64,000 nt of DNA, taken from NCBI GenBank assembly GCA_025201365.1, contig JAIXMF010000001.1:1612001-1676000 (forward strand). Reading direction: 5' to 3'. A program made the translations under genes and the position numbers. This DNA comes from Syncephalis plumigaleata (Eukaryota; Zoopagomycota; Zoopagomycetes; Zoopagales; Piptocephalidaceae). This document shows positions 2,897-63,866 of the stretch, in pieces (positions within the stretch are counted from its first letter, which is position 1; each line of letters opens with the position of its first letter). Below the pieces are notes generated by a model. That model had not been told where the DNA came from. It worked only from the letters and a program-made list of their open reading frames with translations, and searched no databases.

Positions 2897-5105
2897 TTAA
2901 TTTGTTTTTTGTTGTTTGGACCCCCGTTGTCCTTGTCCCCCTCTCTTTGAACGTTTAGAAGGAACAGCACCTCGTTGGAATTGTGTTGGAATACGACCAT
3001 CAGCACGATGACTGCGGATAATTTGAATGAAATTCAGACATGCCGCCATATCCCGATTCCATAAGCGGTGTTCGAATTCGCCTTCCTTCCAAATCCTTTT
3101 AGCCTTCTTGTTCTTCTTGTCCTCTTTGTCCTTCTCGGCCTTGATATTCCTCATGGCCTCTTTACAAGTTTGATTTGTGCATCTAATAAAATAATTAATT
3201 AATATATTGTAATAAATTGCAAAGTGTAATAAATTGTACTTACCTTAAGAGACCATGTCGAATGACATCAGAATATCGTTTTCGTTGACCGGGTCGAGGA
3301 TTTCTGACCCACTTGAACGTCTCGAGTGTGGGTTCGTTGCAGGTTGGGCAACACTTACTGGTCATATACTTATCAATTAGGAAGACTTTGAAATGTCGTT
3401 GCAAAAGTCTCCTAAAGCCAATACCACGTGTGGGCTCGTGATATTTGGCATGAGGAGCGGACCAGTCGCCCATTACAAAAACCGCATCCTTCTTGAACTT
3501 CTTGGTCAGCTTTTTTATCAGTTTGTGGTCACTCTTTTGCTTGTTGATATAAGCTGAGAGCCTTAACTTTCTAAAAAGAGGCTGAAAGGTAGGATCGGCG
3601 GTAGGATCGGTGGTAGAACGGGCGGTAGAACGGGCGTCGGGATGAATGGTGAGAGTATCCCGATAGAAGCTGGTAAGAACATCTGAGTGCTTTGATCGAC
3701 ACTTCAGATATCCTTCGTAATCCTTCGCAGATAGAGTACGGCTCCGGGTCCTTGAAAGAGCGCGCTCGGCATCCTGCACCGCCTTGTTCCCCTCCTTGCA
3801 GTCATCGCGAATCTGACGATATTTCCCCCTCTTCTGCGTCTTGTTTTGACATGATTTTGTGTACCGATATTTTCTTGGCTCATCTGGTGTCGAGTTTTCG
3901 TGTACACAAAATAGCAAATCTCTTCTTCCCGGGTCCACGGTCACGCATTTGCCTTTGATTGCCCTGCGCTCCTCATCATCTAACTTGGTGATATATCTCA
4001 TCGACTCCTTTGCTGCTTTCTTTGCTGCTGACCTCGCTCCCCGTCCCTCTTCGATCTTCTTGATGACCGTGACACCAACGCCATCGGTCTCAATTGAACC
4101 CAAAAACTTGAGCTTGCCACCCATTTGCTTTCTAAGTGGCTTTGACTTAAGGTCCACAGCTTCGTCCCAATATTCATCCATATGATCTTTACCCTTGAAC
4201 TCGCGTCCTAATATGTTTTGGCAAAGTATTTCAGTATCGATATGGATGTAGCATGGCGAGAAGGAACGGCGCAGGGGGAAGCAGTTGAAAGGCTTCAAGC
4301 CGATGCGAGGGAACAGGCGCGCAAGCTCAAAGAACGCCTTAAAGTGCTTCACCGGGCGCGCTACACAGTCGTAATAAATGTTTTTTTCAAACGTGTAGCC
4401 ATCAGGGTAAGCACTTAAAACATTCTTGAATCTGTTGAAGGCCTTAGCAGACATAGGGTCTTTTTTAAATGTCGTCCTACGCACACCTCGCTGTGCTATC
4501 GCAAGTTTGAATCTTCTCGCTGGATCAGTGATAGCACTGGTTTTCTTGTGAAGCTCATCAGCATTTGCTTTCTTGCGTAACCTTCCCCTCATATCCTTTA
4601 ACTTCTTCTTAACATCGAAAACTTTGTTAATAGCCCGTCGAAGAAACTCGCCAAAGCGTAATCGGACGTTGTTGGTGTAAGCGACGTACATCTTCTTTGC
4701 CTCATAGGTTGCTGACTGGTCGGCATAGGCTAACACCGGCAGTTGATAGCGAGCAATCTTAAGGTAATCGCCCAAATAGTTGCCGATGAACGCGCGAAGC
4801 TGAATTGTTTTTTCTTTAGGGTAACCTTCTTGTGTACGTTTGACTAAGGAGAGCCAAACTTGTCTGAAGAACTTTTCATCAATATAATCCTCCAAGTGAA
4901 AATGCGGGTTATGCTGCTCTTTAAGGAATATATATTTCGCTAAGGCATAAGCATGGAAGGTCGTGGTGTGTACGATGTCTACAAAATCGCGCAACTCATC
5001 GTAATGCCTCTTCCAACCAATGCCGGAAAGCGAGGACTTCACAGCCAGAACTCGTCCACTGTCGGCAGAAGTAGACGAGCCATTAGTGTCTGGCTGTGAC
5101 GCCAT
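2897..5105 (-). CDS. Fanzor (eukaryotic TnpB-like) RNA-guided nuclease homologue
   Basis: Fanzor proteins are eukaryotic relatives of TnpB and Cas12 that use a transposon-end RNA to direct DNA cleavage. Two exons (3244-5105 and 2897-3182) join across a 61-bp intron to give 715 residues, within the family range. The N-terminal half is basic and helical. RuvC-I is VTVDPGRRDLLF with Asp391. The RuvC-II region is VFVMGDWSAP with Asp547. Then come IDKYMTSKCCPTC, a zinc ribbon completed across the intron (Cys586, Cys589, Cys622, Cys627), and RuvC-III NRDMAACLNF with Asp665. This order (DPG, TS-xx, four-Cys ribbon, RD) is the published Fanzor signature. The start is the Met of MASQPD; a frame-open Met 17 codons upstream precedes a less plausible leader. 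Odd: the usual Glu before the TS motif is Lys579. The last residues sit in a G- and A-rich tract whose frame differs from that of the remnant at 25.2 kb. Confidence 0.88.
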
Positions 5106-6741
5106 GGATGAAATGGAATAGTATTCAATGGAGTAGCAGTATGTTAAAACGAGCACAGTTACAATATGAAGGGTTAATTAATATTTTATTGTAGTGTAGT
5201 ATAGACGCTTCTTTATATATGTGGAGTGTTAGTAGTATTAACTGCATCAATCTATTGTACAGGGGCAAAACGCCCTGCAGACACATACAGGAAGGGTGAA
5301 TCTATTATGGTAAGTAGTATCATTTACAGCGCAACACAGTAAGACTCGTATCATCTAGTGTCATTGTAGCAATGGTATAACGCCGCTTATAATTTAGCAA
5401 TCAGTAAGTACTAATGAACTTGTTAACACTTTATTAATGAAAGATTCGCTATTAATAAATGAGCAGAGTCTTGTAATGGATGTTAATATATTCATTTGCA
5501 TTCTATTAATGCTTCCGTTAGCAACTTCTCCTTATCTGTTTGTTAACACTTTACTAGCTGTTGTTAATGGTCTATCAATCCACTCCAAGTATCCATCTCA
5601 TCGTTGCTTCTCTATCCCTTTTCCCTTTACTTCATTATCTACATTATTTCCTCCTCCTTTACTTCATTACCAATTCTAATATATTTCCATTCCTCATTAT
5701 CGACTGATGTATAAATTGTTAATTTTCTTTATTAGTCAATAAAAGCATTCTTTCTCTTTCTCTTTACTAATGCTGTCTTCTTCGTACTAATCTCTTTTCC
5801 CTTGTCAATCAATAACACACTTATTTGTGTCAACTACATTCCACTTGTCAGTAAACAACACGCGTCTACTTCCTCTTCTCTATATGCTAGTTATTCCTTT
5901 TACTTTCTCAGTAATACGCGTCTTCTTCGTGTCATTCGCATTCCACTAACTCCCTCTTTCACTTTAGCATACACATTCTCAATAGCAGCTATTCTGTCAT
6001 ACTATCTCTATGCCGTTTATTTATCTCTTTGTTCTCTTCCTCTTCCTCTAAACTATCTACATGCTCACTTGTCATTATTATTACTATACCAATAAGCATT
6101 GTTTATTGTTCGTTCTAGTCCTTTGTGTTCTATCACTGTCCTGCTTATTTATCAATGTTCAAGTGTTTACTGCTCTCGTTGTAATATGTACCTTTTACTT
6201 TTACCACTCTTTTCCGTCATCTGTTTGTATGCCACCCTTACGTCATGCTTTTATTTGTATTTTTATTAGTTTACTGCCATCTACATACTCTATTCACCTA
6301 CGAACATACACTGCTTCTTCGAATAAACTGGCATACGTGTTCATGCACCCTTCCTTGCTCATTCCTTGCTTATTCCTTGCTCGTTCGTGACAAGTCAGTC
6401 ATTCTACTAGTTGCTATTTATTTATTACATTGTTTATCGTGTATTCTATTTGTTCACTCGTTGCTACCTCTATGCAATTAATCGTAAGCATTATCATCAT
6501 AACTTATCTATCATACTAGTTTATTACTACTTGTAAGTACATGACATGACAATATTCAACTATACTAGTACACTTGTATCATCTACCGTATAGAATTAAT
6601 GATGATAGTTATCGCTATCAATAAATAATCCATTACTAAACATGGATTGTTATTATTATCATGCTGTGTCAATTGGCATTTCTATGGTAATAATGATGTT
6701 AACAATTGTGTTAATCTGTTTATTAATAAACTGCAAATGTT
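5106..6741. other. low-complexity T/C-rich interior of the Fanzor element, no gene seen
   Basis: Long pyrimidine-rich plus-strand tracts give short hydrophobic open frames with no start context, splice logic or family resemblance, so I treat them as non-coding. A GC-rich hairpin lies at about 5258-5277, upstream of the Fanzor start and possibly in its leader. The motif TTGTTAACACTTTA appears at about 5420 and 5540. Confidence 0.6.
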
Positions 6742-14884: not shown

Positions 14885-15726
14885 ATCGACGATTATAATA
14901 GACTAATAAGTAGCGTGAGTATTCGTGTGCGTGTGCTTGTATATCCTCGATACTTTAACTAGAGATAGACTAGACTAGAATAGATGTATCCTATCAATGA
15001 ATGAAAGAGAATTTTATTAGTGTTATTTTTATTGAAATGTCACCTTCTAATAGAAGCGATATGACATTTATTTCTCTTATCGAATTGGATTTGATATGAT
15101 TTCAGGAGTGCGTCTCCTCATCCAGAGGAAGGAGATAACATAAACAAATATCAGTATGCTTGTCTGTTAACAATTATAGAAATAAATCATGTATACACAA
15201 ATCTCCTGGACTCCTTTAATTTGACGTCATCTCATCCCTTTTTCCAAATGGTTAAGTAAGCAGGTAGAAGAGAAAGAAGAAGAAGAAAAGAAATATCTGT
15301 TATTCATCGAGTGATTATATAATTTACATGGCTATAGAAGCAAGATCTATGGAATGGATACTTGATCATATCACTTTCTACCTGTTGCTACTTTATTCAT
15401 TCTTTGTATAGTCTTGTAGTATCCTATTACATTACTATTAGTATGCCATGCCAGTATTGCTAAACTACCACTCACAAATAATGACTAAGAAATGTACATT
15501 AAACAATTAGAGTTACGCGAACTTGATCATGATGTATTTTCACATGTAATCAATGACTTATAACTGTATCTCCGATGAAATTACATTTTTACATCTCTCG
15601 ATGAACGATGTGACAGCAGATCATAACTTTACCGCTTTGTTCAGTTTCTCATTCCTTCTACTATTATCGGTAACAATCGGTTACGCTTTCTGTATTGCTC
15701 TTCGCCTAGCTGTCCACTTCTTCAAT
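14885..15726. other. divergent promoter region between the surface protein and TRP1
   Basis: An 840-bp spacer serving genes transcribed away from each other. It is AT-rich, with a purine-rich AGAAGAAGAA tract near 15270. The TRP1 frame stays open upstream to 15553, but that part encodes a hydrophobic stretch not known in the family, so I place it in the leader. Confidence 0.5.
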
Positions 15727-18180
15727 ATGGTGCTTGTTCTCATTGATAATTACGATAGTTTCACCTGGAATATCTATCAGTATTTGTGCTCGCTAGGAGC
15801 TGATGTACGAGTTTTCCGCAATGATAAAACTACCGTGGACGAGGTAGCTTCCTTGAACCCGACGCATGTAGTTATCTCGCCAGGCCCTGGTCATCCCTCC
15901 ACGGATGCCGGTATCTCTAAAACGGTTATCGCACACTTTGCGGGCAAGATTCCCGTGTTGGGCGTTTGTTTAGGCCATCAGTGCATTTATGAAATGTACG
16001 GCGGTGTTGTTAACGCCACGGGCGAGATCGTTCACGGCAAGACGTCGGCACTCGTTCACGACGGTAAAGGCTTATTCCTAGGCGTGCCACAAGGCGTCGA
16101 GGTGACGCGATACCATTCGTTGGCGGGTGACCCCTCCACCCTTCCGGCGGACTTGATGGTGACGGCACGTACTGCTGACGGCGTCATCGAGGGCGTACGT
16201 CATCGTTCCTTGTGCATTGTAGGTGTGCAATTCCACCCGGAAAGTATACTTAGCGGATATGGTATGGAAATGCTTGCGTCATTCCTTCGTATGCACGCGG
16301 GTACCTGGGCTGAACAGCAAGAGTTCAATGTGGCATGCAGCACGGATGATCCAGCAGTGACCATCAATGGAACAACAAATGGAGCAACCACTGCTGTCAC
16401 TATTACTACTACCACTACTACAGCAGGAACAGGAGCGCCAACTATTTTAGAGCGTATACAGGCACAGCGTAAACTGGATGTAGCTGCTGCTAAAGCACAA
16501 CCTGGACAGTCGGAGGAACAGCTACGTGCGTTAGTGGAAGCGAATGCCAATGAACCAGCCATCGACTTGTATCGACGACTTCAAGCATCGGCGGCACCTG
16601 GCCAGCCAGCGGTGATGGCCGAGATTAAACGCGCATCGCCAAGTAAGGGTATTATCGATATCAGTATCAATGCAGGTCTACAAGCGCGTAAATATGCCGA
16701 AGCAGGTGCGGCGGTCATTTCCGTACTTACCGAACCCACTTGGTTCCGCGGTAATCTCGAGGATTTACGCCAAGCACGTAGTGCAGTGTCGCATCTCCCC
16801 TATCGACCGGCCATTCTACGTAAGGATTTCATTGTGGACGCATATCAGATTTACGAGGCGAGACTCGCCGGTGCCGATACCGTCCTATTGATTGTGGCCA
16901 TACTCACTGACGTGGAACTTGCCGAGTTGATGCAAGTATCAAGGTCGATTGGTATGGAACCCTTGGTGGAAGTCAATAATCAGGAGGAAATGCAACGAGC
17001 CCTAAAGGCTGGAGCGCGAGTTATCGGTGTTAACAACCGGAATCTACATACGTTCGACGTGGATCCAACGACCACGACACAACTGGCGCATCAAGTGCCA
17101 TCCGACGTTATACTGGCTGCGTTAAGTGGTATCATGAAGCGTGCCGACGTTGAACCGTATCTAGTGGCAGGAGCTAGTGCCATTCTAGTTGGTGAAGCAC
17201 TAATGCGTTCGTCGGATCCAGCTGCTTGTATTCGTGAATTACGCGCGGTAACCTCGCCTAATGTCGACATTGATGCCATTGATACTAGTACGCATAATGG
17301 TGGTCGTACACCACCTCATGTAAAAATATGCGGTATACGCACGGTAGAAGCAGCGCTTGCAGCATCCGAAGCAGGTGCACGCTTCCTTGGTATGATATTT
17401 GCACCGACACGTCGTCGAGTGACCATTGGCCAGGCACGCGCCATTGCCGAGTCTGTACGTGCAGCATATGCACCAAACTCACGTGTAGTGAATAACGGCA
17501 CTAATGGCACTACGACGATGAAGCATATTGATGTTAATGTTGATGACGATGATGACGTGACAGGTGGCACGCCTCGTTTAAATGGCAGTATAGCTGATGC
17601 AGCTAGTCTAAATTGGTTCGAACATCAAGCTAAGCAAATAGCCAAATCATCACGCCCTCTATTAGTGGGTGTATTCCAGAATCAATCGCTCGAGTATATG
17701 ACACATGTAGCGCGTGAGGTTGGTCTAGACTATATTCAATTACACGGACAAGAACCAACGGAAATAAGCGCGTTCCTACCAGTACCCACTATACGTGCAT
17801 TCCACCTGAAATCAGATAATAGCAGTAATGATAATGAGATAAACCGGATAAAATGTGAAATAATTCGTGAAGGTTATCACGCGTTACCATTGCTAGACGC
17901 ATATGTTGCAAATGCACCACATCAAGGTGGACAAGGTGTAGCTATCAATGCGAAGACGGTGACGCAAGTAACCACATCGATAGCCGGTGGCAACCAGAAA
18001 GCACTACCGGTGATACTTGCTGGCGGTTTAAATCCACAGAACGTTGCACAGATAACACGACAAATGACGCCATGGGCAGTGGATGTTTCTAGCGGCGTGG
18101 AAACAGATGGCGTGCAGGATGTCACGAAGATTCGTGCGTTTATTCATGCTGTACAGCATTCGCAGTCAGGCTTGGCATAA
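15727..18180 (+). CDS. TRP1: trifunctional tryptophan enzyme: glutamine amidotransferase / IGPS / PRAI
   Basis: One 817-residue chain with three activities of tryptophan synthesis. Residues 1-200 are the class I glutamine amidotransferase that feeds ammonia to anthranilate synthase: LIDNYDSF, the nucleophile elbow GVCLGHQ and the catalytic GVQFHPES. Residues about 240-520 are indole-3-glycerol-phosphate synthase: AEIKRASPSKG, LRKDFIVDAYQI, GVNNRNLHTF and LVGEALMR. Residues about 530-815 are phosphoribosylanthranilate isomerase: VKICGIRTVEAAL, YIQLHGQE, VILAGGLNP and VDVSSGVE. This fusion order is the standard fungal one. The start is the Met of MVLVLIDNYDSF, which matches family starts. The gene has no introns and is richer in GC than its neighbours. 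Confidence 0.95.
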   Translation: MVLVLIDNYDSFTWNIYQYLCSLGADVRVFRNDKTTVDEVASLNPTHVVISPGPGHPSTDAGISKTVIAHFAGKIPVLGVCLGHQCIYEMYGGVVNATGEIVHGKTSALVHDGKGLFLGVPQGVEVTRYHSLAGDPSTLPADLMVTARTADGVIEGVRHRSLCIVGVQFHPESILSGYGMEMLASFLRMHAGTWAEQQEFNVACSTDDPAVTINGTTNGATTAVTITTTTTTAGTGAPTILERIQAQRKLDVAAAKAQPGQSEEQLRALVEANANEPAIDLYRRLQASAAPGQPAVMAEIKRASPSKGIIDISINAGLQARKYAEAGAAVISVLTEPTWFRGNLEDLRQARSAVSHLPYRPAILRKDFIVDAYQIYEARLAGADTVLLIVAILTDVELAELMQVSRSIGMEPLVEVNNQEEMQRALKAGARVIGVNNRNLHTFDVDPTTTTQLAHQVPSDVILAALSGIMKRADVEPYLVAGASAILVGEALMRSSDPAACIRELRAVTSPNVDIDAIDTSTHNGGRTPPHVKICGIRTVEAALAASEAGARFLGMIFAPTRRRVTIGQARAIAESVRAAYAPNSRVVNNGTNGTTTMKHIDVNVDDDDDVTGGTPRLNGSIADAASLNWFEHQAKQIAKSSRPLLVGVFQNQSLEYMTHVAREVGLDYIQLHGQEPTEISAFLPVPTIRAFHLKSDNSSNDNEINRIKCEIIREGYHALPLLDAYVANAPHQGGQGVAINAKTVTQVTTSIAGGNQKALPVILAGGLNPQNVAQITRQMTPWAVDVSSGVETDGVQDVTKIRAFIHAVQHSQSGLA

Positions 18181-45630: not shown

Positions 45631-46939
45631 AACGGTAAAGTGACGAGACCACACACACGTACACACACATACACGGACGCACGCACGTCTAATAATGAAA
45701 GACGTCTAGAGGAATGGCTACGTAGACTAAATATACGCCACTTTTTATCTCTACTGTAACGGGATGTTCAACGATAATAACGACAGGGATGAAAGATGAA
45801 GTCTAGGAAACAAAAAAGTGTTAGAAACAAGTTGGTAACCATACCACCAGCACTACCAGTAACAGCAACAGTCGTCAACCACCATATGCCTTTCATTCAG
45901 TGCTAAGCCCCACACTATCAAGGGCCATTGCCACCACAATTGCTCAGCCGACTATTATTTTTGCGTATTTATGCATTGTATTAACTTACAGTTAACGAGA
46001 TAGCACAGCTACAAATAAGTATCGGCTATACATATAGACGCTTAGTGAAGTAATACACTATTGGTATAAAGGGAGACAGACAGACAGACAGACACACTTG
46101 CGAGTAAACGGGATTGAAGCATAAAAGTGAAAGTCAAGGCAAACGAGGTGTGTGTGTGGTTTACTATTAAGAAAAAGCGGTAGTTGAATTTTAAAGGGGG
46201 ATCAACTGAATCGTATTCAGTAATGTCTTCTTTCGAATTGTTTAAATGCCAAATAAGAAACGGTTAACGTATATCATTCACTTCTTGATCTCAGTTGACT
46301 GTATCATCATAAATGAGTAAATAAATATGATATGATCAACATGAGAATTAGATGTTCAATATCATTTTTAATGTATTTGCCTGTAGAATTGACTAGGAAT
46401 TATTGAATACAATGGTGCAATGCTTGCTTATTATTTATTACATAATGCAATGTAATTGATATGAGTTGGCTAGTGTTACTACTAAGATTGAACAACTTTG
46501 CCAGTAATAGCACATTACTTCTTACGTCATGTGCTACTATTAATGATAAACAGTAGAACTTATCAGCGAACATTAGCGACTTGCTAAACGAAGCCTTTCA
46601 TATATATATAATCGTCAGACACATGTACTTCTTGCTTATTCTGTATTCTATTGCTCGATCCAATGCAATATTATTAAGTTTGGCAAACATTCATGAAATC
46701 AAACTAAGCGATTACAAACATACATCCCGTCATGCTACAACGAATGCGCCATAAACAGAAGTAGTAATGAACGAATCACATGATGAGCCAGGCCTCATCT
46801 GTCTAATTTGAGGCTGGGAAATAAGTGTTTATACTCAATGAGTTAAAAAGTCGCCGTCTTGTTTCGTAACTGACCGCGCTAACCGCACTTTCCTCCTTCT
46901 TTTATCCTACTCTAGTTCAACGTAATATTTATCAACGAC
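45631..46939. other. divergent promoter region, no gene seen
   Basis: A 1.3-kb spacer between the phosphatase and the left fungalysin. It holds an ACAGACAGACAG run near 46075, a CA-rich run near 45655 and AT-rich DNA. No credible open frame. Confidence 0.5.
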
Positions 46940-48935
46940 ATGAAACCTACCGCTTCTATTTCTACTTTAATTGCTAGTCTACACGTTATTCTAGCGGTAT
47001 CTCATGCACTGGATGTCGGAAATACCCTAAATATTTTTAATTCTGGACCACGCCCCATATCTAGACTGTTCACCGAGGTGCAAGATGGATATCTTCATGT
47101 GAACCTAGGACATGCCAGCAAACTATTAAATAATCTAGTGCATATTGGTGACGGTAATAATGGATCCAAATCTTCATTTCAGTTGGCTTTGGACTTTGCA
47201 AATAGTAAATTTCAACTTTCGACGAGTGACTACTTGGTTAAAGACAATTATCGCAGTGGCGATACTGGACTCACCCACGTTTACCTGCAACAAATTGCCG
47301 ATGGTGTCGAGGTGACGAATGGTCGTATCAACATCAGTATTAATGATGAGGGTCGTGTCGTTGCTTATAGCAAGGTTTCGTGCAACCGAAATACGCTGAT
47401 GCTGGGAAATGGGACACATCGGACAAAGGGTTGATCGGTGCCAAACAAGCATTAGAAATATTCGCACGTCGTATCGGCGAATCGATCAACATCAATGATG
47501 TCGGTGAAAGCTCTACAGTTACTAATCAACAGGAGAGGATAATACTGGATAATGTTCCATTTGCACGTAAGCACATTGTTGCTACTCGTCGCTACCTCCG
47601 TCTAGATGATAATACGATGGTACCGACGTGGAATCTACAAGTAGCCATGCCTACTAATCATTTTGATGTCGAGATTGCCGCCAATGGATCTAGCATTTAT
47701 CAATTACTCGATTACACCTCCAATGCTAGTTATCGTGTGGTGCCAATGGGCAATAACAATCCAATGGAGACGGAACGCGAGTTGCTTGTCGATCCACAGG
47801 ACGTAAAAGCATCGCCTAATGGTTGGCTCGATACTAGTCAGGCATCCAACGGTGTTACCAAAGGAAATAACGCCATTGCCTGTGTAGCCAGTTATGAAAA
47901 GCTACCCAACCATCGACAGAAACTCATCTGTAATCCTATCCCAAGCAGTGGCAACCAAGTATTCGACTATCCGCTTGACTTGACTAAAGAAGCGGCACAA
48001 TACACGAATGCATCGGTGGTTAATCTATTCTACATGGTCAACTCATTGCACGATTTCTTCTATGCTTACGGATTCGATGAGATATCCGGCAATTTCCAAA
48101 TGGATAACTTCGGGAAAGGAGGCAAGGGAAATGATCCGATCATTGCAGTGACGCAAGACACTCTTAACATCAATAATTCGTTCTACTTGCCAACAATGGA
48201 TGGCGAATCACCTGAATCCATTTATACCGATATAACACGACCTCGCCATCACGCGATGCAGCCTTCGATAACGCGGTCGTCACCCATGAGTATACACACG
48301 GAGTGACAGATCGTCTAGTGGGTGGACCAAGCAGTGGCGGTTGTCTAGCATTACTTGGTCCCGCTGGTATCGGCGAAGGAAGCAGCGACTTTGTAGCCAT
48401 GTGGCTGGAATTAAAACCTACTGACAAGCGTGACAGAGCGTACGAATATGAAAAGTACGTCTATGGCGTAAGAGCACGTACGTATCCATACTCGACGGAC
48501 ATGAAGGTTAATCCCACGACGTACGCCTTGTTCAACAACGATACATGGGCCGAGTCACATAAATTGGGTGAGATATGGGCATCTACCCTATACGATATGC
48601 ATTGGAATCTTGTCGACAAGCTTGGATTCGATCCAATATTCGATCTGCCAATCTTAATCGAGGCAACACGCTATCGATGAAGTTATTTATTAACGCGCTT
48701 AAACTAATGAATGCAGCCATCGTTCATTGATGCTCGCGATGCCATACTACAAGCGGAAAAGACATTGACGAAAGGCGCGCATAACTGTGAGTTATGGAAA
48801 GCATTCGCTAAGCGTGGACTCGGGCATGGTGCCATGCTCAATGGTACACGAGATGTAGTAGTTGCCGGCACTGATATGCTTACATTTATCGATAATGTCA
48901 TTGAAGATTTCAAAGTTCCAGATAATTGCCGATAA
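46940..48935 (+). pseudogene. broken fungalysin (M36) metallopeptidase copy
   Basis: Fungalysins are secreted zinc endopeptidases made with an N-terminal propeptide. This copy starts with a signal peptide (MKPTASISTLIASLHVILAVSHA) and propeptide text (HVYLQQIADGVEVTNGRINI). It carries ASVVNLFYMVNSLHDFFYAY, the zinc motif HEYTH (48285-48299) with GIGEGSSDFVAMW supplying the third ligand, and the tail [20 protein letters not shown]. At least four single-base frame breaks, near 47375, 48200-48260, 48630 and 48700, split it into pieces in different frames. The copy at 49.2-51.1 kb, facing it, is much better kept through the catalytic part. With this many breaks I call it a host pseudogene, though indel errors may add to the count. 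Confidence 0.7.
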
Positions 48936-51631: not shown

Positions 51632-51759
51632 CAATAAATGATTGAATGATCTTGTAGATATACTTGTTGTTGTTGTACCAAGGAATAATGACTTGAATGG
51701 CATGGACACTAAAGGGTCTTGTAGTATCGATACATTCTTGACTTGAATACCTATAATAT

Positions 51760-52651
51760 CTACTTGATGATGCCCTTGTCTTGTCTGTAATCATAATGGA
51801 TTAGTATGGGTATGATTATCTGTTGGATTATCACTTACTGCTTATTCCTATCATTTAATTAACGTATATCGTATTGTGATTAGCACGTCGTAAATGACGA
51901 TTGAAATGATAACTTACGTCCTGTCATACAAGGACATATGAATTGGCGCCATAATTAGTACAGTCATATGTTGCAGTCAGAATAATGACTTACAGCCTGG
52001 TATGCAAACATACGTGGATCATATGCCATATGGTGCTTAGTATGTCAGGTATTGTAGTCAGAATTGTAACTTACGACCTATCATAACGAAATCATGTGCC
52101 ACGTTATAATTAGTATTTCATTCATTACGGTCAAATGAAGACTTACCCACTATCATACAAAAACATATGTCAATCATATACCATGCTGTAATTAGTACAT
52201 CCATGCATAATAGCCAGAACGGTAACTTACGCCCTATCGTACAAATATATGAATTATGTGCCATAATGTGATTAGCGTATTTTATAATATAATCAGAATG
52301 GTAACTTACAGACACTTGAAAATGTAATCACATATGATATTGATTCGTATTACAATTAACATAGTACTTGTTATGATTAATAGAAGAGCTTACTGCGTGG
52401 GACTAACAAATGAATAGGTAGAATAACATTATGATGTGATTAGCACGTCAAAACAACCATTAATATACATGAACTTACGATCTATCGGTAATCACCGGTG
52501 GACAATGAAACAATAGGCTACGATTAGTACATCAATTGATAGGGTCATGGCCGACATACCACGACGATCCAGGCAGGTGCTGCTTCGACGAGGTCAGACT
52601 GGTGACAGCGACAATGGCGACGGCAATAGCGATAACGGCAGAGAACTTCAT
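51760..52651 (-). CDS. small secreted peptide gene built from microexons (3, 5 and 9 nt)
   Basis: Exon 1 (52560-52651) gives a signal peptide, MKFSAVIAIAVAIVAVTSL, shared with the gene at 63.9 kb. Exon 2 is 52479-52517 (39 nt). After it come exons of 9 nt (52394-52402), 5 nt (52310-52314), five of 3 nt (52231-52233, 52147-52149, 52075-52077, 51994-51996, 51918-51920; GGC, TGG, GTC, GCT, GAC) and 9 nt (51839-51847), then a last exon from 51784 ending at a TAG at 51760-51762. Every junction has GTRWGY-type donors, a CTAAY-like branch site and AG. All exons but the 5-nt one keep the frame; leaving it out gives about 60 residues ending NKQQDKGIIK. The relic at 53.2 kb has the last two exon sequences fused in the same frame. 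Exon use is my reading; transcripts are needed. Function unknown; likely a secreted peptide or effector. Confidence 0.5.
51838..52314 (-). repeat. tandem array of about 72-84-bp intron-plus-microexon units
   Basis: Read on the minus strand, diverged units follow one another. Each runs GTAAGT, a TTACCATTCTGA-like stretch, TACTAAT or GCTAATCAC, a CATATGATT-like stretch, and YYATGATAG or a similar acceptor, then three bases, then the next GTAAGT. Implied intron lengths are 76, 81, 69, 78, 73 and 70 bp, then a last one of 54 bp. Units are clearly related but only partly identical, so the duplication is old while the splice signals are preserved. Confidence 0.8.
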
Positions 52652-63662: not shown

Positions 63663-63866
63663 CTAACGATCGACTTGCGCAGTTTTCGCGACAGTCTCGG
63701 AATTGGTATTGGCTTGACTCTCTTCGCTAGGATTGGGATTGGGATTAGGTGAACGACGTGCGACAACAGCACGACGCATCCTATTGGGCTTGGCTTCGAC
63801 GACGACGACCATGTTGGCGACAGCGACAACGGCGACGGCAATAGCGATAATGGCAGAGAACTTCAT
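63663..63866 (-). CDS. small secreted peptide, same signal-peptide family as the microexon gene
   Basis: A 67-residue frame starting with MKFSAIIAIAVAVVAVANM, nearly the same signal peptide as the microexon gene at 52.65 kb, followed by a basic stretch with dibasic and RRS-type sites (MRRAVVARRS) that could be processing points, an NPNPNPSEES repeat and a polar tail ending AQVDR. The stop is TAG; the same frame stays open after it for about 29 more residues (GSQAEKYGYVAIGATANVAV) to a TGA at 63573-63575. The 3' flank shares sequence with the other family members. No microexon array here. Function unknown; probably a secreted peptide. Confidence 0.6.
   Translation of the reverse strand: MKFSAIIAIAVAVVAVANMVVVVEAKPNRMRRAVVARRSPNPNPNPSEESQANTNSETVAKTAQVDR

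Follow-up and report, generated by a model that had tools for sequence, protein, structure and literature searches.

The locus at 51751..52651 (minus strand) of the window, i.e. the whole 64,000-nucleotide stretch of Syncephalis plumigaleata DNA analysed here, carries a tandem array of tiny exons and is a short member (five array codons) of a large genome-wide family of genes for small, putatively secreted propeptides. S. plumigaleata is a parasite of other fungi. For the family as a whole, we consider it highly probable that secreted propeptides are encoded through one-codon exons, that the introns are removed singly and that the arrays evolve by units.

Structure of the window locus

Ten GT...AG introns follow one another in series (52559-51785, minus strand; 78, 76, 79, 76, 81, 69, 78, 73, 70 and 54 nt), with exons of 3, 9, 5, 3, 3, 3, 3, 3 and 9 nt between them. 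CTAA is present in nine of the ten introns, the exception being that at 52393-52315. The features are:

52560..52651, minus: exon 1, 92 nt, ATG at 52651; starts with MKFSAVIAIAVAIVAV and is signal-peptide-like by eye
52482..52559, minus: intron 1, 78 nt, donor GTATGT, differing from the array kind
52479..52481, minus: exon ATC, 3 nt
52403..52478, minus: intron 2, 76 nt, GTAAGT
52394..52402, minus: exon TCCCACGCA, 9 nt (most relatives: 9 or 3 nt)
52315..52393, minus: intron 3, 79 nt, GTAAGC, without CTAA (GTTAATT instead)
52310..52314, minus: exon TGTCT, 5 nt (most relatives: 5 or 2 nt)
51848..52309, minus: array of six homologous introns (76, 81, 69, 78, 73 and 70 nt) and five single-codon exons
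52231..52233, minus: single-codon exon GGC
52147..52149, minus: single-codon exon TGG
52075..52077, minus: single-codon exon GTC
51994..51996, minus: single-codon exon GCT
51918..51920, minus: single-codon exon GAC
51839..51847, minus: stop exon GAATAAGCA, 9 nt, TAA in the frame of the array codons
51785..51838, minus: last intron, 54 nt, of the ordinary kind, branch ~17 nt before the AG, without homology to the array introns
51751..51784, minus: first part of the last exon, ACAAGACAAGGGCATCATCAAGTAGATATTATAG, probably 3' UTR

The five trinucleotides (GGC, TGG, GTC, GCT and GAC) and the neighbouring 5- and 9-nt exons given in a preliminary description of this DNA are all present, and the microexon array that it proposed is genuine: the best splice chain through the ten consecutive introns has six 3-nt exons and a score of 68.3, whereas 100 first-order Markov shuffles of the array stretch gave at most one such exon and scores of at most 7.9, never matching the chain in either respect. 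A minisatellite or chance origin of the array is rejected on the basis of these shuffles together with the reversed-pattern controls given below. No known RNA family was found in the window at the gathering threshold.

Exon 1 is 92 nt long in the window copy as against 94 nt in intact family members, so that this copy, as assembled, is frame-broken, and in its joined frame a stop appears close to where that exon ends. Because of this interruption, the evidence for a coding array is taken from the relatives. An initial reading in which the window frame ran on into the last exon was dropped, since intact relatives are in phase 0 and have their TAA in the penultimate exon.

Other features of the window

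Two M36 fungalysin genes adjoin the array:

46916-48680, plus: M36 fungalysin gene, in tandem and head to head with the gene at 51033-49159
51033-49159, minus: M36 fungalysin gene, head to head with the gene at 46916-48680

The M36 open reading frames (ORFs) are in different, overlapping frames, and non-consensus introns are used in the models deposited for them, which suggests assembly indels here. The two models look like indel artefacts and are a poor guide to ordinary introns of this genome. The M36 ORF beside the array shares 99% identity with an S. plumigaleata protein. Elsewhere in the window, a 645-aa ORF (3243-5177, minus) is without a Pfam match; by eye, its C-terminal part, which has a CPTCN motif, recalls TnpB/Fanzor-type nucleases. 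A tryptophan-pathway fusion ORF at 15550-18177 (plus) combines glutamine amidotransferase, IGPS and PRAI domains in a single uninterrupted frame.

A family across the genome

The window gene has at least 172 matches in the assembly (among the best 40 of 235 candidates scored), a 30-nt exon-1 motif occurs 180 times and a 35-nt last-exon motif 151 times (both with up to three mismatches, the reversed controls giving 0); these figures include duplicate contigs and are therefore not gene counts, as some contigs look like duplicates of one locus (e.g. the C186/C362 and C263/C2 matches). Apparently 3' UTR, the last exon belongs to the best-kept parts, with at least 64 exact 35-mer copies among the matches listed.

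We read 38 array loci besides that of the window (L021-L058). Exon 1 of intact members comprises 94 nt, i.e. MKFSAVIAIAVAVVALTSLVAVEASPVLERR plus one base; its leader (MKFSAVIAIAVAVVALTSLVAVEA) is hydrophobic by eye, and RR ends this signal-peptide-like exon. There follow exons of 3, then 9 or 3, then 5 or 2 nt; with these phase 0 is reached, and the array begins. As a rule in the family, the array is closed by an exon of whole codons plus TAAGC[AG], which one further intron, short and of the ordinary kind, separates from the last exon. The three longest uninterrupted runs of 3-nt exons number 45 (L039), 31 (L037) and 27 (L033), and L039 spreads 252 coding nt over 4182 bp with 50 introns.

A Pfam search with 12 spliced family proteins gave nothing convincing (best E 0.06), and a PDB sequence search with the L037 product found no relative (best E 0.49). 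A second related lineage with the same leader family appears among metagenome proteins (P0139-P0143 and P0145-P0179 in part), 12 of which end in an apparent read-through of intron 1 (RRG-TSGHGHIN type), while others continue as RRAPQ. No Syncephalis fuscata protein was found among the protein matches listed (one listing covering 8000 scored candidates).

Exon length and splice signals

The exon length is set with great precision. The pattern TATGATAG-N-GTAAGT, a test independent of gene models in which copies on duplicate contigs are included, is present genome-wide at 726 places when N=3 (reversed control 0), but at six when N=0-2 (control 4) and at 20 when N=4-15 (control 33). In a splice-chain search that gave no bonus for length 3, exactly 3 nt was the length of 485 of the 498 array exons in 27 loci. 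These 27, also used for the stop counts below, come from the 36 loci then decoded. In the counts on matched units and on cysteine splice sites given below, L023, L028, L034, L049, L050, L051 and L055 were left out as near-identical, and L029 and L036 as incomplete (their chains did not reach the last exon). The search returned odd 14-nt exons in L026, L031, L038, L049 and L053, and it placed a few 2-nt exons wrongly.

Array introns are more variable in length (59-89 nt) and uniform in their signals: 457 of 525 start with GTAAGT, 463 of 525 contain CTRAY, and the distance between donor and branch A is 37.2 (sd 1.8) nt, that between branch A and acceptor 41.5 (sd 4.3) nt. GTA, GTG and CAG are absent from the 485 array codons of L021-L055 (CAA 9, GTC 8 and GTT 10), as if codons that create rival splice sites were avoided.

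Codon reading and decoded peptides

Read in the array frame, none of the 485 codons is a stop, where three composition models lead to expectations of 11, 23 and 34; the other two frames of the joined series have 3/458 and 49/458 stops. Two 6-nt exons TAACTC (L027 and L045) hold an in-frame stop and are read as terminal, at the peptide end. From the ATG, 24 of 36 decoded chains are open to the terminal stop; eight are frame-interrupted (the window copy among them), two fall short of the last exon and two are open but without a terminal stop in the chosen chain.

The peptide pattern C-x-CC-x-C appears in 12 of 32 non-redundant loci (9/29, plus L056-L058). Examples of decoded peptides are ...CIKISNRCCYENSDKPGTLFCDDR (L021), CEWDYNGYCCHSTPGGGFSCWD (L024), CEDGFVRMPEFRNKCCKIMEGHNARSTVCAAEE (L037), CDDQICCKVINGETTGYCRDRH (L057) and the cysteine-free GPISSTPQPHPTITPEEALRLQAEKEAKEANERAQKP (L054). 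The products are probably small peptides, rich in cysteine or in glycine/lysine. A role at the interface with the host fungus is suggested by the leader, the cysteines, the family size and its diversification.

Conservation of array units

Pairing units between genes by their introns alone gave 81 reciprocal-best pairs, 13 of which involve cysteine, and in all 13 a cysteine is matched by a cysteine. When codon change is followed by class of intron divergence, the pairs per class are few (16, 14, 43 and 8). Cysteine exons also differ from others in their splice sites: a CAG acceptor precedes 44 of 46 cysteine exons versus 116 of 452 other exons, and the donor GTAGGT follows Cys1 and Cys3 in eight of nine cases each, but Cys2 and Cys4 in none of nine. 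This distinct pattern implies that each cysteine unit has its own lineage.

Substitutions in closely related genes point to selection on the splice signals and to a less uniform history of the exons. In the near-identical pairs L021/L023 and L054/L055, none of 220 exon positions has changed as against 152 of 4162 intron positions (~8 exon changes expected at the intron rate; p 0.0003). Over eight close pairs pooled, splice signals have changed at 15 of 2252 positions versus 476 of 10008 in introns, while exons, with changes at 37 of 562 positions, show no greater conservation than introns. L024/L040 stands out with 16 of 77 exon positions changed versus 141 of 1716 in introns, the exon changes being mostly amino-acid replacements. 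We read the exon pattern as constraint mixed with diversification.

Array-less paralogs and deposited models

The window contains a second family member, without an array:

63663..63866, minus: uninterrupted 67-aa ORF, array-less, bearing the family leader and two RR sites

This ORF has an NPNPNP stretch, and a similar one is found in the metagenome protein P0177. The protein P0127 likewise matches the genome uninterrupted (C360 and C223, 100%, open frame of 80 aa).

Two array-less paralog loci (L059 and L061) were read, and their ends are fused as the exon structure of the array genes predicts. At the 5' end both have CGTCGTG+CYC+CTCAA (in L061, ...CGTCGTGCTCCTCAATTTG... corresponds to CGTCGTG/CTC/CTCAACTTG of array genes), and at the 3' end TAAGCA is joined to the last exon (...TAAGCAAACAAGACAAGGACAT... 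corresponding to TAAGC[AG]/intron/AACAAGACAAGGACAT). Judged from genomic DNA, these paralogs support the junctions of exons 1, 2 and 3 and that of the stop exon with the last exon, i.e. they bear on the ends of the array, not on its middle. The 300 nt upstream of L059 and L061 are only 0.51-0.63 identical to those of array genes (shuffled ~0.46), so that shared promoters are not clear for these two. Another array-less locus (C223:1533788-1534009) adjoins a 90% match (C223:1534055-1534396) to the upstream region of L037.

Deposited S. plumigaleata models hold most of the decoded array residues in order, 38 of 43 in P0122 and 40 of 45 in P0126, the latter compared with L039 (C186), a near-copy of the P0126 locus. 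P0126 runs on into intron 2 and omits five array exons, all with non-GTAAGT donors (GTAGGT, GTAAAT or GTAGAT), and P0122 leaves out an exon with a GTAAGT donor and retains one with GTAGGC. The omitted exons and the reading of intron 2 by P0126 suggest that these models may come from ab initio prediction and not from transcripts.

Homology among array introns

Across genes, array introns share a mean identity of 0.615 (shuffled 0.434), and when they are compared with introns 1, 2, 3 and the last the values are 0.483, 0.454, 0.480 and 0.389 (shuffled 0.433, 0.439, 0.439 and 0.363); all are obtained with strict gap costs, looser costs giving no separation (0.732 versus 0.716 shuffled). Intron 1 has a mean identity of 0.919 with intron 1 of other genes. 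Since the array introns are homologous to one another and hardly to the flanking introns, the arrays probably grew by the copying of intron-plus-codon units, which would be the simplest account.

Proposed splicing and alternative explanations

We propose that exon 1 (94 nt) would encode a signal peptide and a short propeptide up to the dibasic RR site, after which three small exons, the first of 3, the second of 9 (or 3) and the third of 5 (or 2) nt, would set the reading frame to phase 0. Every later residue of the peptide would then come from its own 3-nt exon, with up to 45 such exons in series between homologous introns of ~80 nt, until a short exon supplies the stop codon and is followed by the last intron and the conserved 3' exon. 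Most likely, the spliceosome would recognize each intron as a unit (intron definition) by its near-perfect GTAAGT donor, a CTAAY branch ~37 nt on and an AG ~41 nt beyond. The introns would have to be removed successively, since the 3-nt spacing of the sites precludes their simultaneous occupation throughout, and one codon would be gained per step, with constitutive inclusion of the array exons. The peptide would be secreted and, as the motif suggests, perhaps cleaved after RR. On an evolutionary scale, arrays would gain and lose intron-plus-codon units, with four cysteine units staying fixed in many members, so that peptides could lengthen, shorten or change by single residues.

The preliminary description had left two possibilities, i.e. 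single-residue exons strung together or the stepwise removal of one long intron. In the latter case every AG-NNN-GT would be a recursive splice point and the trinucleotides would never enter the mRNA. Each acceptor does adjoin a donor, as would be the case at ratchet points, and with frame-neutral units complete removal would be harmless; yet a noncoding array would have no reason to avoid stops in a single frame (0/485), to have cysteine matched by cysteine in 13 of 13 unit pairs, to hold its exons at exactly 3 nt while its introns range over 59-89 nt, or to spell C-x-CC-x-C peptides with a frame-matched terminal TAA. Ratchet points keep no exon sequence at AG/GT, while the coding constraint on the trinucleotides suggests that it is kept here; recursive splicing without retained codons is thus rejected by this constraint, and we regard stepwise removal as very improbable. 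The same lack of stops, the C-x-CC-x-C pattern, the 13 cysteine pairs and the fused end junctions of the two array-less paralogs favour the single-residue exons. Combinatorial splicing, also raised in the preliminary description, in which these exons would be optional and one pre-mRNA would give many peptides differing by single residues, fits with the frame-neutrality of all array exons, the omission of some of them from deposited models (the five with non-GTAAGT donors in P0126) and the recurrence of weak GTAGGT donors at Cys1 and Cys3. The P0122 pattern (a GTAAGT exon out, a GTAGGC exon in), however, suggests that omission may be a gene-caller effect, and skipping of cysteines would spoil a conserved framework, so that we think this reading unlikely. 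A bolder extension, to which we likewise give little credence, is a splicing alphabet of interchangeable intron-plus-codon modules, by which peptides might evolve, and perhaps diversify per cell, residue by residue. As the splice sites of cysteine modules are distinctive (CAG acceptors, with GTAGGT donors at Cys1 and Cys3), splicing could then switch the disulfide framework, and the parasite would own a splice-based generator of peptide variety.

As to how the arrays arose, introner-like elements could have been inserted between the codons of an array-less gene, instead of units being copied. The array introns are indeed one homologous family distinct from other introns, and array-less paralogs exist; but the units carry their own codons, in that for 102 of 485 units the codon is shared with the nearest unit of another gene, as found by the upstream intron, versus 3.7% at random. 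Two whole units make the difference between L034 and L035, and AAG and GCC units alternate in L048. We find insertion doubtful and keep unit copying as the preferred origin. A further alternative concerns one copy only, not the family, and we put its chances at about even: the window array itself may be without function as a decaying repeat or pseudogene, or be broken only by assembly indels. This agrees with its exon 1 of 92 instead of 94 nt and the frame stopping near its end, with the open 94-nt exon 1 of the closest copy among the matches listed (C130, 96% identity, query 1-455) and with the overlapping frames and non-consensus introns of the adjoining M36 genes, which indels predict. Against this alternative, no donor or acceptor of the window array is damaged, and the TAA of its stop exon keeps the register of the array codons.

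Implications

If transcripts confirm the single-codon reading, this would be, to our knowledge, the most finely divided gene architecture, with ~50 introns per 83-residue product (L039). It would offer a test of how, and in which order, the spliceosome handles dozens of adjacent introns one codon apart, and intron gain and protein lengthening would be a single event, introns and residues being added together. Such genes would also be missed or garbled by gene callers and short-read aligners. Given the frame-neutrality of the array exons, residue-level change would be possible in apparent host-interaction peptides, and natural variation across the family is ready for selection tests.

Comparison with known systems

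The preliminary description knew of no fungal gene with an array of 3-nt microexons; in agreement with this, we found no published account of single-codon exon arrays in the open-licence literature, and one may exist elsewhere. Introners, or introner-like elements, are many homologous introns in one genome. The array introns resemble them in being numerous and mutually homologous (0.615 versus 0.434 shuffled), but differ in lying head to tail, exactly 3 nt apart, in the one gene family examined.

Arabidopsis APC11 has a single-nucleotide exon that is constitutively spliced although far below the spliceosome footprint. The authors of that study would explain it by recursive splicing together with intron definition, the combination also proposed here; it is one isolated tiny exon of a conserved gene, as opposed to the tandem array here (PMC4674806). 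Fusarium CYP621A has a one-nucleotide exon backed by an intronless relative and by reads, also an ultra-small exon in a fungal gene, but a single one and in an enzyme gene (PMC12940212). Trichoderma Xlr2 is reported as a case of a functional microexon in a filamentous fungus; unlike the array, it is one regulated microexon in a transcription factor gene (PMC11121469).

Schistosome micro-exon genes (MEGs) and aphid bicycle genes are nearest in logic, not in structure. MEGs comprise 35 genes with 10-20 exons, mostly of 15 bp (range 6-81 bp, or 3-81 in the abstract), and introns of 0.1-5 kb (PMC10526429). MEGs are further marked by an N-terminal signal peptide, for which the hydrophobic leader is a candidate counterpart here, and by isoforms that arise when central exons are alternatively spliced. 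What the two have in common is fast-evolving parasite proteins, secreted in MEGs and putatively so here, encoded by many short exons, mainly multiples of three, and as in MEGs most coding sequence of the present family lies in very short symmetric exons (485 of 498 array exons are 3 nt). The sizes differ: here exons of one codon stand up to 45 in a row, in a fungus, and the array introns, unlike those of MEGs, are ~80 nt long (59-89) and mutually homologous. Aphid bicycle/megacycle genes have ~17 exons on average, with internal exons nearly all of phase 2 (PMC9168663). By layout they can be likened to the present genes as a large, rapidly evolving family of putative effectors with many microexons, whereas the array exons described here are in phase 0 and consist of exactly one codon.
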